DNA from: an uncultured Acidimicrobiales bacterium
Lineage (GTDB): Bacteria; Actinomycetota; Acidimicrobiia; Acidimicrobiales; Aldehydirespiratoraceae
Direction: 5' to 3'
Length of the DNA: 64,000 nucleotides
Assembly: GCA_958296055.1 (NCBI GenBank)
Contig: CATQHS010000001.1
Coordinates: 2,080,277 to 2,144,276, forward strand
Shown piece by piece: positions 58,776 to 64,000 of the stretch; within the stretch, counting starts at the first letter, position 1, and each line of letters starts with the position of its first letter. The translations under genes and the position numbers were made by a program. The notes under the pieces were generated by a model. That model was not told the DNA's origin. It did not search any database and saw only the letters and a program-made list of their open reading frames with translations.

Positions 58776-60437
58776 CTAGTCCCCGAGGGTCTGCTTCCTC
58801 TCGAGGATCCGCCTCACCGCCGCCCTGGCTTCGTCCAGGTTCTCCACGAAGTGCTCGGCGGGAACCCGCCGGAAGACGCCGAAGCCCGCCATGACCTCGG
58901 CGGGCATCCCCTGCAGGCCCATCACGATGCACTCGGTGTTCTCCTCCGCGGCGATGTCGATCATCTGCTCCACCACCATGGCCGCGCTGTCGTCCATATA
59001 GACGGTTTCGGAGAAGTCGAGGATGACGATCTCGTGATCCTCGATGTCGGTGCCTATCGACTCGACCAGCTTGTTGGAGGACGCGACCGAGAAGTTCCCT
59101 CTGAGCTTGATCAGGCCGGCTCGGGCCGAGAAGGCCTCGTCTTCGTCGCCCTCTCCCGGCTCTTCCTGCCCGGTGCTGGCCCCGTCGTCATCGAGGAAGC
59201 TTCGGTCCAGCAGCGGCGCCGATATCACGCTGTCGAGCTGCAGGCTCTCCATCTGCCGGGCGCTGGTCATCCCCGCCACGATCAGGCCCATCGCCACCGC
59301 GGCGACGACGTCGACGAACACCGTGAGTCCCATGGTGATCAACATCACCGTGAGATGGATTTTCTGGATGTGGCGGCATCGAACGATGAACCGCCAGTCG
59401 ATGGAATCCCAGCCCACTTTCACCAGGATGCCGGCTATGGCCGCGTGGGGAACCGACTCGATGAATCGGCTCAGCTCTACTATCACTCCTACGATGACCA
59501 GGGCCCGCACCAACCCCGAAACCCGTGTCCGCCCGCCGGACCGCAGGTTTGTCATCGTTTCCATGGTGGATCCGGCGCCGGGCAGACCTCCGACCAACCC
59601 GGCCACGGTGTTCCCGACCCCCTGGCCCAGGAGTTCCCTGTCCGGGTTGTGGCGGACGCCGGTCATGGCGTCGGTGGTCAGGGAAGTGACCAGGCTGTCT
59701 ATGGAGCCGAGCAGCGCCAGAACCATCGCCGGCTGCAGCGAGCCCACCACCGAGTCGACGGAGAGGTCCGGCAGCAGCCGATCGGGCCAACCGATTTCCA
59801 GGGGGCCGATGACGGGCTCGCCGGTCAGCCACATCTCGCCCACGAAGGCTCCGACCACGATGGCGACCAGGTAGCCGGGTATGTAACTGTCCAGGCGGCG
59901 GGGCCAGGCCACGGCCACCAGCAGCGTCAGGATGGCGACCAAAAACCCGTTCATATTGAAATTCGCCGCCGCGTTCGGAAGGGCTCGCAACGCTCCCCTC
60001 ACCCCGCCCTCGACCACCGGCTCTCCCAGGAAGGGCAGGATGTTGATGATGATGATGATGATGCCGATTCCGGACATGAACCCGGATATGACCGAGTACG
60101 GCGTGTAAGCGATGAAACGGCCGGCTCGCGACAGGCCCAGTATGACCTGTATCAGCCCCGCCATGATAATTATGGTGAGTACCGCGCATACATTTTCATC
60201 CTGGCTGACATAGATGGCGGCTATGGCCACGGCCATAGGGCCGGTGGGTCCCGACATCTGACCCGGCGTCCCTCCGATCAGCGCGGCCAGGCACCCCAGC
60301 GCTATCAGCCCGTACACGCCGGCGCTCGCCCCCAGACCCGAAGTCACGCCGAAGGCCAGCGCCAGCGGCAGGCTCACCACCGCGGTGATGGTGCCGCCGT
60401 AGAGATCACCTCTGAGGGTTTTCAGGTCGTAGGACAT
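58776..60437 (-). CDS. SulP family inorganic anion transporter with STAS domain
   Basis: 553 aa from ATG 60437. About 11 hydrophobic segments with SulP signatures: GDLYGGTITAVVSLPLALAFG at the start, GGTPGQMSGPTGPMAVAIAA near residue 60, TPYSVISGFMSGIGIIIII, and GLVGGLPGAGSTMETMTNLRSGGRT near 280. An acidic linker (DDDGASTGQEEPGEGDEDE) leads to a C-terminal STAS domain (LIKLRGNFSVASSNKLVE, IVILDFSETVYMDDSAAM). Likely substrates are sulfate or bicarbonate. It converges with menC and is divergent from the GlmS-like gene. Confidence 0.9.
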   Translation of the reverse strand: MSYDLKTLRGDLYGGTITAVVSLPLALAFGVTSGLGASAGVYGLIALGCLAALIGGTPGQMSGPTGPMAVAIAAIYVSQDENVCAVLTIIIMAGLIQVILGLSRAGRFIAYTPYSVISGFMSGIGIIIIIINILPFLGEPVVEGGVRGALRALPNAAANFNMNGFLVAILTLLVAVAWPRRLDSYIPGYLVAIVVGAFVGEMWLTGEPVIGPLEIGWPDRLLPDLSVDSVVGSLQPAMVLALLGSIDSLVTSLTTDAMTGVRHNPDRELLGQGVGNTVAGLVGGLPGAGSTMETMTNLRSGGRTRVSGLVRALVIVGVIVELSRFIESVPHAAIAGILVKVGWDSIDWRFIVRCRHIQKIHLTVMLITMGLTVFVDVVAAVAMGLIVAGMTSARQMESLQLDSVISAPLLDRSFLDDDGASTGQEEPGEGDEDEAFSARAGLIKLRGNFSVASSNKLVESIGTDIEDHEIVILDFSETVYMDDSAAMVVEQMIDIAAEENTECIVMGLQGMPAEVMAGFGVFRRVPAEHFVENLDEARAAVRRILERKQTLGD

Positions 60438-60586
60438 GGCCTCCGACTACACCCGACGGCGACAGCCGCCTCTTGGAGCGGCCGACGCGAAGACCCTCCG
60501 GGCGGGGGAGAGATCGACCTCAACTGTCACCAACGGCCCATCCTAAACGACTTCGGGGCCCGGGCAAGCTCCTAAGGTAGGTGCTC

Positions 60587-63500
60587 GTGTGCGGGATCGT
60601 CGCCATCCTCCGCCGGCCGGCGGGTCGCCCGCCCCCCAGTGCCGCCGAGGTGATCGGCTCGATCCCCGGCCCCGATCCGCTGACCGGTCCCGACCCGGCC
60701 TCGGAGTTGGCCCGGACCGCGGCCGGGCTGGCCCGGGCCGACGCCCTCCTCGGGGGCGTGCCCGGGCTGAGGCTGATGCTCTCGGACCGTTCCCTGGCCG
60801 CCGCCCTCGATCACCGGCTCGGCGCCTTAGCCGAGGCGATCGCCGAGATCGAAGCCCGCCTCGACGCCGGGGACATCACCGCCGGAACCGCCGAACTGGA
60901 GCGGCTCAACCACGATCTGATCGGGGTCCGCGACGGCATCTGGGCCCTGCGCCGGGATCGCCTGGAGTCGGCCCGCTCGGTGCGCGGCCTCATCGGCGCC
61001 GCCCGCTCCGAGGCGGTCGTGACCGCCGGCCTGTCCGTCCATCAGGCCCTGGCCGCCCTCGACCGCCTCGAGGTCCGGGGCCGCGACTCGGCCGGGCTGC
61101 ACCTGCTCGTCCGCGGCCACGGCCTGGAACTCGACGACCCGGCCGTCGCCTCCGCCGTCGAGGCCCGGAGCCGGGACCGAGACTTCGGCTCCGGCTCGGT
61201 CCGCCTGGCCGACGGGATGTTGAGCTTCGTGTACAAGACGGCGGCCGAGATCGGCAATCTGGGCGACAACACCGCCGCGCTGCGAGCCGCCATCGGAGAC
61301 GACGAGCTGCTGGCCGCGGCCCTGGCCGGAGACGAGGCCCGGACCTTGGTGCTGGCCCACACCCGCTGGGCCTCGGTCGGCATCATCTCCGAGCCCAACG
61401 CCCACCCCCTCAACAGCGAGCTGATCGGCCCGCCCGGCGGCTGGGGCGACGACCCGGCCGCCGCTCCCTACGTGGTCGGGGCGGTCAACGGCGACATCGA
61501 CAACTACGCCGACCTCATGGTCGCCGAGGAGATGGCGCCGTCGCCGGCCATCACCACCGACTCCAAGGCCATGCCCGCGCTGATGAGCCGCCGCCTGGCC
61601 GCCGGCCTGCCCGCCGTCGAGGCCTTCCGGCGCACCGTGGCCTCCTTCGAGGGCTCGGTGGCCGCCGCCGCCTGCACGACCGCCGCCCCCGGCCGCCTCC
61701 AGCTCGCCCTCCGGGGCAGCGGCCAGGCCCTCTACGTCGGTCTGGCCGAGGACGCCTACGTGGTGGCCAGCGAGCCCTACGGACTGGTCGAGGCCACCGA
61801 CCGCTACCTCCGCATGGACGGCGAAACCTCCGGCAACCCCGACAACCCCAGCGCCGGACGGGGCCAAGTCGTCGAACTCGACGAGGACTCGGCCGGGGAA
61901 CTGGAGGGCGTCTCCCGCTGGTCCTACGACTCCACCGATCTGCCGGTGGCCGGCGCCGACGCCGTCCGGGCCTCGATCACCACCCGAGACATCGACCGGG
62001 GCGACCACCCCCACTACCTGCTCAAGGAGCTCACCCAGGCCCCGGACTCGTTTCGCAAGACCCTGCGGGGCAAGATCGTCGACACCGCCGCCGGCCCCCG
62101 GGTGTCGCTCGGCCCCGAGATCCTCCCCGATCGGGTCAAACAGGGGCTGCGCTCCGGATCGGTGAACCGGGTGCTGGCCGTGGGCCAGGGCACCGCGGCC
62201 GTGGCCTGCGAAAGCCTGGCCGCCGTCCTGGACGCCCTGGCCGGCCGCGCCGTCACCGCCTTGGCTCTGCCCGCCACCGAGCTGTCGGGCTTCGGCCTGC
62301 GCTGGGACATGTCCGACACCGTCGTGATCGCCATATCCCAGTCGGGCACCACCACCGACACCAACCGCACCGTCGATCTGGTGAGGGACCGGGGGGCGGC
62401 GGTGGTCGCCATCGTCAACCGCCGCAACAGCGACTTGACCGAGCGGGCCGACGGGGTGCTCTACACCTCCGACGGCCGCGACGTGGAGATGAGCGTCGCC
62501 TCCACCAAGGCCTTCTACTCCCAGATCGCCGCCGGGCTGCTGCTGGCCGCGGCCGTCGCCGAGGAGGTGGCCGGCGGTGCCGGGGCCGAGGAGCGGGCCC
62601 GGCTCCTCGACGCGGTCCGGGCCCTGCCCGCTGCTCTGGAGGAGGTGCTGGAGACCAGGGGCGCCATCGGCGAGGCGGCCCGCCGGTTCGCCCCTTCCCG
62701 CCGCCACTGGGCGGTGGTGGGCAGCGGGTCCAACCGGATCGCCGCCCGCGAGATCCGAATCAAGCTCTCGGAGCTGTGCTACAAGTCGATCTCCAGCGAC
62801 GCCATCGAGGACAAGAAACACATCGACTTGTCGTCGGAGCCGCTGGTGCTGGTGTGCGCGGCGGGCCTGACCGGCTCCACCGCCACCGACGCGGCCAAGG
62901 AGGTGGCCATCTTCCGGGCCCACAAGGCGGCCCCGATCGTGGTGGCCGACATAGGCGAGGAGCGCTTCGACGCCGCCCTGGCCGTGCTCGGCGTCCCCGC
63001 CACCGACCCTCGGCTCTCGTTCGTGCCCGCGGCCATGGTCGGGCACCTCTTCGGCTACGAGGCGGCCCTGGCCATTGACGCCCAGGCCCGGCCCTTGCGC
63101 GAAGCCCACCGGGCGCTGGAGCGGGCCGCGGCCCGGCCCGGAGCCACCAGCGAGGAGGTCATGGCCGAGATCGCCCCGGCGGTGGGGCGGGCCGCGGCCG
63201 CCTTCTCCGACGGCCTGCGCCGAGGCGACTACAACGGCCACCTCGAGGCCTCCACCGCGGTGCGAGTCTCCACCGCCCTGCGCTACGCCCTGGGCCGCAC
63301 CCCCCTGGACGGCTACCAGTTGGAGCTGGGCAAGGTGGGCACCCCGACCGCGGTGATAGAGGACTTGGCCGCCGCCCTCGCTCTGGGCATCGCCGAGCTG
63401 TCCCGCCCCATCGACGCCATCCGCCACCAGGCCAAGACGGTGACGGTGGGGATCTCCCGCTCCGACCAGGCGCTGCTGCAGGCCCGGCTGGCCCGGGCCG

Positions 63501-64000
63501 TCATCGACGCCGGCGCCCCCCGGGACCAGCTCGCCTGGTCGGTCCTGCGGACCCTGGCCGACCTCGACCCGGCCGTGGCCGCCGTGGTCGGCCACACCCG
63601 CTACCGGGTCGAGAGCCTCGAAGTCGGCGACGACGAGGCCCGGCTGGTGGTGGTGGACCGGGGCGGCATCTCGGTGAGCATCACCTCCCGGGCCGACCGG
63701 ACCCCCGACCTGATCGGCACCAAGCACCTGGTGGCCGTCGAGCGCCAGGTGCTGGTGGCCACCGGCCGCCGCGACGGCCGCACCGTGGTGCTGGTGCCCG
63801 AGGTCAAGAACGGCGTGACCACCGGGATCACCCTGCTGCACGTCGCCTTCGCCGAGCGCCTGTCGGTGGACGCCGCCCGGGGGGTGCTGCAGGGGTACCG
63901 CAACCGCTACTCGGAACTGCGCGACGCCGTCACCGAGACCGAGCCCTCCTTCCGGGAAGATCTGCTGGCCGCCATCGCCCCGGTGAAGCTGCTGACCGAG
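60587..64000 (+). CDS. Oversized GlmS-like glutamine amidotransferase/double SIS protein, 3' partial
   Basis: The start is chosen at GTG 60587 because it puts Cys at position 2 (VCGIVAILRRPAG), needed as the N-terminal nucleophile; another GTG lies 6 bases upstream. The frame runs off the window after 1138 codons. Glutaminase motifs: RGRDSAGLHLLV near residue 164 (about 26 in E. coli GlmS), LAHTRWASVGIIS near 258, AVNGDIDNYADL near 301. SIS 1: VIAISQSGTTTDTNRTVD near 585 and VEMSVASTKAFYSQI. SIS 2: IRIKLSELCYKSIS near 725 and IRHQAKTVTVG near 945. A helical insertion of about 135 residues follows the N-terminus and at least 190 residues follow the usual end. Likely hexosamine-phosphate synthesis; paralogous role possible. 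Confidence 0.82.
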   Translation, partial: MCGIVAILRRPAGRPPPSAAEVIGSIPGPDPLTGPDPASELARTAAGLARADALLGGVPGLRLMLSDRSLAAALDHRLGALAEAIAEIEARLDAGDITAGTAELERLNHDLIGVRDGIWALRRDRLESARSVRGLIGAARSEAVVTAGLSVHQALAALDRLEVRGRDSAGLHLLVRGHGLELDDPAVASAVEARSRDRDFGSGSVRLADGMLSFVYKTAAEIGNLGDNTAALRAAIGDDELLAAALAGDEARTLVLAHTRWASVGIISEPNAHPLNSELIGPPGGWGDDPAAAPYVVGAVNGDIDNYADLMVAEEMAPSPAITTDSKAMPALMSRRLAAGLPAVEAFRRTVASFEGSVAAAACTTAAPGRLQLALRGSGQALYVGLAEDAYVVASEPYGLVEATDRYLRMDGETSGNPDNPSAGRGQVVELDEDSAGELEGVSRWSYDSTDLPVAGADAVRASITTRDIDRGDHPHYLLKELTQAPDSFRKTLRGKIVDTAAGPRVSLGPEILPDRVKQGLRSGSVNRVLAVGQGTAAVACESLAAVLDALAGRAVTALALPATELSGFGLRWDMSDTVVIAISQSGTTTDTNRTVDLVRDRGAAVVAIVNRRNSDLTERADGVLYTSDGRDVEMSVASTKAFYSQIAAGLLLAAAVAEEVAGGAGAEERARLLDAVRALPAALEEVLETRGAIGEAARRFAPSRRHWAVVGSGSNRIAAREIRIKLSELCYKSISSDAIEDKKHIDLSSEPLVLVCAAGLTGSTATDAAKEVAIFRAHKAAPIVVADIGEERFDAALAVLGVPATDPRLSFVPAAMVGHLFGYEAALAIDAQARPLREAHRALERAAARPGATSEEVMAEIAPAVGRAAAAFSDGLRRGDYNGHLEASTAVRVSTALRYALGRTPLDGYQLELGKVGTPTAVIEDLAAALALGIAELSRPIDAIRHQAKTVTVGISRSDQALLQARLARAVIDAGAPRDQLAWSVLRTLADLDPAVAAVVGHTRYRVESLEVGDDEARLVVVDRGGISVSITSRADRTPDLIGTKHLVAVERQVLVATGRRDGRTVVLVPEVKNGVTTGITLLHVAFAERLSVDAARGVLQGYRNRYSELRDAVTETEPSFREDLLAAIAPVKLLTE

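Follow-up and report, generated by a model that had tools for sequence, protein, structure and literature searches.

GlmS is an essential and well-studied antibacterial target, and the bacterial enzymes are viewed as compact proteins of ~610 residues that are regulated through RNA. The eukaryotic form, GFAT, is regulated allosterically by UDP-GlcNAc. A review lists Cys1, Glu488, His504 and Lys603 as the catalytic residues of GlmS and places the control of the bacterial enzyme at the RNA level (PMC9272926). We analyzed a glmS gene that departs from this compact form. It begins at 60587 on the forward strand of the window (the whole 64,000-nucleotide stretch of DNA under study), which sits within a 3.27-Mb contig of a 95%-complete genome in 3 contigs. 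The gene is a single open frame that occupies 60587..64000 and runs past the window end. The contig sequence beyond supplied its 3' end, consisting of 14 further residues and a stop at window-equivalent 64043-64045, 45 bases past the window, and the complete protein is 1,152 residues long. The longest frame opens at 60581, but translation is likely to start from the GTG at 60587, since this codon gives the Met-Cys-Gly-Ile-Val that the enzyme class requires, with Cys at position 2, and has the sequence AAGGTAGG five bases upstream (Table 1). No RNA element, whether a glmS ribozyme or another, was found at gathering thresholds between 60300 and 60700, the region searched upstream of the gene.

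Table 1. Features of the giant glmS gene, in window coordinates with the corresponding protein residues
Feature	Position	Strand	Basis or remark
Shine-Dalgarno-like AAGGTAGG	60574..60581	+	5 bases 5' of the GTG; direct reading
Cys codon, equivalent of catalytic Cys1	60590..60592	+	Cys in 101/101 giants that reach the N-terminus
N-terminal helical insertion, residues 9-145	60611..61021	+	Between strand 1 and helix 1 of the glutaminase domain
Remaining glutaminase domain, residues 146-465	61022..61981	+	Motifs RGRDSAG, HTRWAS, NGDIDN, TTD
33-aa insertion in the glutaminase domain, residues 180-212	61124-61222	+	Alignment
First SIS domain, residues ~466-690	61982..62656	+	SQSGTTTDT, SVASTKAF; PF01380, 65.5 bits at 527-655
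Second SIS domain, residues ~691-829	62657..63073	+	Alignment and fold match
Helical insertion before the C-tail, residues 830-941	63074..63409	+	Alignment; helical bundle in the pLDDT 95 model
GlmS C-tail, residues 942-955 (..RHQAKTVTVG)	63410..63451	+	K950 = Lys603
C-terminal extension domain, residues 956-1152	63452..64000 (last 14 residues outside the window)	+	PAS-like alpha/beta domain and C-terminal helices

To place the borders of the insertions, we aligned the protein to 16 canonical GlmS sequences of the same class, which gave four main extra blocks of 137, 33, ~110 and 197 residues, besides small ones. A previous sequence-only reading of this DNA had recognized an amidotransferase with two SIS domains, a helical insertion of about 135 residues that splits the glutaminase after its N-terminus, and a new domain of at least 190 residues past the usual end. 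All three claims hold: the catalytic residues and the fold match over residues 2-957, and the two additions measure 137 and 197 residues. Its inventory named these two insertions correctly and missed those at 180-212 and 830-941. The N-terminal insertion is helical in our model, as that reading had proposed, and has no match in Pfam (residues 9-145). Pfam found one SIS domain and a sub-threshold glutaminase in the whole protein, nothing consistent in the inserts and no match for the C-terminal domain (956-1152), and a search of solved structures by sequence with a profile of this domain also returned no match. A 782-aa open reading frame (E 1e-4) that might have been an independent relative of the C-terminal domain was rejected as a chance match, since its sequence reads as a methylmalonyl-CoA mutase.

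By sequence, the closest solved structures to the giant are E. coli GlmS and human GFAT-1. Curated GlmS models match its residues 242-830 with E 1e-55 to 1e-60, yet far under their cut-off: the NCBIfam equivalog TIGR01135 scores 189 bits where its cut-off is 418.05 and describes a protein of ~607 aa that ends at the C-tail, whereas 197 residues follow the tail here. Judged by its conserved residues, the enzyme is of the GlmS kind, a variant that fails the curated GlmS model and whose additions match no Pfam family. The glutaminase residues Cys1, Arg73, Asn98, Gly99 and Asp123 are identical in all 101-103 giants that cover these columns, and Arg26 and His71 are likewise invariant wherever the column is covered. 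In the isomerase half, Glu488, His504 and Lys603 are invariant in 105/105 giants, and Glu481, Lys485 and Lys503 are kept just as strictly. Two parts of the ammonia channel, Trp74 in the Q-loop and ..AKTVTV.. in the C-tail, are invariant as well. The second SIS signature, previously described as divergent, does not bear out that description: the 20 residues of KLSELCYKSISSDAIEDKKH pair gaplessly with a 20-residue canonical stretch, and Glu481, Lys485, Glu488, Lys503 and His504 of E. coli GlmS (E722, K726, E729, K744 and H745 of the giant) are present in all 105 relatives, which rules out a degenerate second SIS site. Positions that differ group-wide in the giants, as read from the alignment, are the non-catalytic His77, His97, Glu351 and Ser303; Ser303, at the phosphate site, is replaced by Ala, Glu351 by Thr and His97 by a hydrophobic residue. 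In addition, the giants have NGD after the HNG motif where the canonical enzymes have NGI.

Windows of high G+C content yield spurious long open reading frames on all frames, as would be expected if the giant were an artefact of gene prediction or assembly, or a decayed copy. However, 105 relatives share its architecture, with the same frame and length and with invariant catalytic sites, which refutes this explanation and excludes chance or a local frameshift. In one other genome (G047, 2 contigs), a giant open reading frame is apparently broken into two frames, one of 812 and one of 431 residues (contig 1, 1179749-1182446), in what appears to be a frameshift or sequencing error.

The genome studied here encodes one SIS-domain protein, the giant GlmS. 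A search with the GlmS model found no further GlmS-like protein that includes an isomerase half; its three other matches read, by sequence, as one AsnB-like protein and two GlxB-like glutaminases. On this basis we rejected the presence of a second, normal glmS elsewhere in this 95%-complete genome. Two stand-alone class II glutaminase-like proteins were observed at L004 (1432-2592) and L005 (1099-2055). After one of them comes a GXGXG-type protein, and a glutamine-synthetase-like gene adjoins on the other strand; on reading, these genes would make up a GlxB-type cluster.

Six of 61 relatives score above the GlmS cut-off; most of the others show the giant. We then counted both forms in 150 genomes of the class from the survey table: a giant-type match is present in 65, the canonical ~610-aa form in 81 (79 that pass the GlmS cut-off and 2 with canonical fragments) and neither at threshold in 4. 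The C-terminal domain is found in exactly 65 of the 150 genomes, all of them giant-type, and in 0 of the 81 canonical ones, and within our sample no family contains both forms. Giants also occur in 7 genomes from other classes of the phylum; the scan of genome contigs that bears on occurrence in distant phyla covers the best 80 matches listed. The sequence-only reading had considered the giant unusual unless it was the sole GlmS and its length was normal in the class, and this is what we found. As the sole GlmS, with a long form in 65 of 150 class genomes, the giant is a regular form of the lineage and not a local oddity. A class-wide actinobacterial group thus uses a diverged GlmS nearly twice as large as the ordinary form, which it does without. 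The curated annotation model misses this protein, and automatic annotation would therefore report these genomes as having no GlmS. Public MAGs under the names Bifidobacterium breve, Acidobacteria or Thermoanaerobacterales (L058, L083, L051, L061 and L062) encode a typical acidimicrobial giant GlmS and have probably been misnamed.

Downstream of the giant lie acpS (in an alternative frame), nnr, alr, a gene for an S58-type peptidase, tsaB, tsaD, groEL and guaA, all named by sequence reading. At the 81 loci examined (3 of them canonical), nnr is present in 63 and alr in 57, and many of the remaining loci are short contigs. Just upstream, on the opposite strand (58776-60437), is a gene for a SulP-type anion transporter with a STAS-like end, which is absent at every other locus examined. 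A canonical glmS of the same order adjoins the same nnr-alr-tsaB-tsaD genes. Given that giant and canonical glmS occupy the same gene neighbourhood, replacement of one form by the other in place fits best. Mean core identity is 29.7% between giant and canonical proteins, compared with 59.5% among canonical proteins and 66.1% among giants, and an unrooted tree sets the two apart with full support and very long branches. The four other-class giants placed in this core tree nest among the giants of the class, which suggests horizontal transfer of an essential cell-wall gene to other classes. One of the other-class giants lies on a 986-kb contig and is therefore not a stray contaminant contig.

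The sequence-only reading had also proposed that the enzyme may use another sugar. An amidotransferase for another sugar phosphate, in a cell that makes GlcN-6-P in another way, would be in line with the ~30% core identity to canonical GlmS, the phosphate-loop substitutions and NGD in place of NGI. We consider this very improbable, however, because the giant genomes would then have no GlmS, while exactly the non-giant genomes have the canonical form in the same neighbourhood, and because Glu488, His504 and Lys603 in the isomerase half never vary. Instead, the giant is almost certainly a working GlmS: it is the sole candidate, lies in a glmS-type neighbourhood, excludes the canonical form genome by genome and has intact catalytic residues, from which we infer its catalysis and substrate. 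The mutual exclusion of the two forms also lends indirect support to the production of GlcN-6-P from glutamine and fructose-6-phosphate. Counted against the GlmS reading are the score below the curated cut-off, the substitutions at Ser303, Glu351 and His97, and the weakness of the PAS-like match described below.

In the amino-sugar pathway around GlmS, GlmM is present in the same genome just under its cut-off, NagB gave no match over its cut-off, and there is no recognisable GlmU (54.5 bits at best). A bifunctional enzyme, whose C-terminal domain would catalyse a further glucosamine-phosphate step or some other activity, could account for the lack of GlmU and for the invariant acidic, basic and tyrosine residues of that domain. 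Nevertheless, most GlmU matches in the same order stop near model position 344 of 452 whatever the GlmS type, canonical-GlmS families included, so that these matches lack the end of the GlmU acetyltransferase part, and other orders of the class have a full-length GlmU, including families that carry the giant. The state of GlmU is thus independent of the type of GlmS, which rules out that the giant compensates for a missing GlmU. As the C-terminal domain moreover matched no enzyme fold, we regard a second activity as improbable.

We modelled the structure of the giant in full and in part. The full-length model, built from 15 sequences, has a pLDDT of 75 and is poor in the second SIS domain; over residues 2-957 it matches full-length GlmS and GFAT chains with Z 26.4-27.6 and 534-555 residues aligned. 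The model of residues 826-1152, built from 89 sequences, reaches a pLDDT of 95.3; in it, the C-tail is preceded by a helical bundle and followed by a beta-sheet domain and then helices. Structural matches to the insertion before the C-tail (Z ~7 to 8) are generic, as is usual for helical bundles. For the C-terminal domain, the best structural match is the large glutamate dehydrogenase of M. smegmatis (7jsr, chain residues 175-361), a weak match (VIA Z 9.3, rmsd 4.7, 163 aligned, 12% identity), followed by GAF and PAS domains (Z ~7 to 7.5); the best Foldseek E is 0.019. In a relative, the homologous stretch matches 7jsr chain positions 215-376 and ends in the Pfam GDH helical motif 1, from which the matched part of this dehydrogenase would be its PAS-type domain together with helical motif 1. 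A profile-profile comparison spans the region and gives marginal support, 5 of 150 column shuffles scoring as high. We regard the likeness as a resemblance of fold, short of proven homology.

The additions differ in how they evolve. The N-terminal insertion is the fastest-evolving part of the giants, with a mean majority of 0.49, and its small set of conserved residues (E105, D116, W119, D124 and R125) suggests a helical interface. The C-tail is the most conserved region. The C-terminal domain has 33 residues at >=95% identity across the giants, many of them charged or polar; the highly conserved ones include R958, R979, Y1006, D1024, R1035, K1046, D1063, R1065, E1072, Y1104, R1107 and E1117. 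Helical bundles often mediate assembly, and the largely helical inserts and the rapid change of the N-terminal one would suit an active GlmS whose additions are purely structural and provide a larger or more stable oligomer with no sensing. We consider this unlikely: the C-terminal domain is conserved like the glutaminase core (mean majority 0.68 vs 0.69) and has more invariant charged and polar residues than a plain scaffold would usually need. Still, assembly is the main alternative to regulation for this domain. Overall, our findings support, with a probability of roughly 0.78, the reading that the giant is the sole GlmS of its genome, an ancient, very diverged form that takes the place of the canonical one in close to half of the class, and that its additions most likely serve assembly and allostery.

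We propose that fructose-6-phosphate binding would order the C-tail and Q-loop of the giant, that Cys1 would hydrolyse glutamine, as its conserved residues imply, and that the ammonia would cross an internal channel to the isomerase half of two SIS domains, which would turn fructose-6-phosphate into glucosamine-6-phosphate for peptidoglycan. Most likely, the additions determine how the oligomer assembles and provide allosteric control: the PAS-like C-terminal domain may sense a metabolite and act on the C-tail, which closes the sugar site and channel, and could open or lock this tail in response. Allosteric control is our best guess for the regulatory role that we infer, since the domain directly extends the C-tail, the segment closing over the sugar site. 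A new kind of regulation, as the sequence-only reading had envisaged, is plausible for a separately folding C-terminal domain with many invariant charged residues that is fused to the C-tail. Only tentatively do we suggest that in this whole lineage the first step towards amino sugars and the cell wall is catalysed by a giant GlmS bearing its own PAS-like allosteric sensor on the C-tail. If so, a metabolite signal would act directly on sugar-site closure and ammonia channelling and, since the known control of bacterial GlmS is at the RNA level, such a sensor would be a distinct solution built into the protein. In human GFAT-1, tags at the termini interfere with the enzyme (PMC7000685), and therefore a large domain on the C-tail was likely accommodated by selection. 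Conversely, human GFAT2 tolerates a C-terminal His-tag (PMC7948480), which shows that an extension on the C-tail need not be a regulator. The giant is in this respect a natural experiment in extending a channelling enzyme at its mechanistically sensitive C-tail.

Our literature search returned no relevant open-access paper on a giant GlmS in Acidimicrobiia or on a GlmS with a PAS domain, and as far as we found this form is undescribed in the open-access literature searched. Of the known systems, the closest to the C-terminal domain is L-GDH180 (7jsr), in which the PAS-type domain and helical motif 1 give the best full-length match, only modestly above those to GAF and PAS domains (Z ~7 to 7.5). 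The PAS-type module of L-GDH180 has been proposed to sense metabolites (PMC8175468). Unlike L-GDH180, the giant has no glutamate dehydrogenase domain, and the two show no significant sequence relation. Eukaryotic GFAT (human GFAT-1, 6r4f and 6r4j) has the same core fold and is, like the giant, enlarged in the glutaminase half, with no sign of shared insert sequence; its loops lie elsewhere and are short relative to the 137-aa insert, and GFAT ends at the C-tail. With canonical GlmS (TIGR01135 / NF001484; E. coli 1jxa and 2j6h), the giant shares the Cys glutaminase, the two SIS domains, the catalytic residues, the C-tail with Lys603 and the gene neighbourhood, but it differs in its length (1,152 vs ~610 aa), in its core (~30% identity) and in its four insertions, including the domain that follows the tail.
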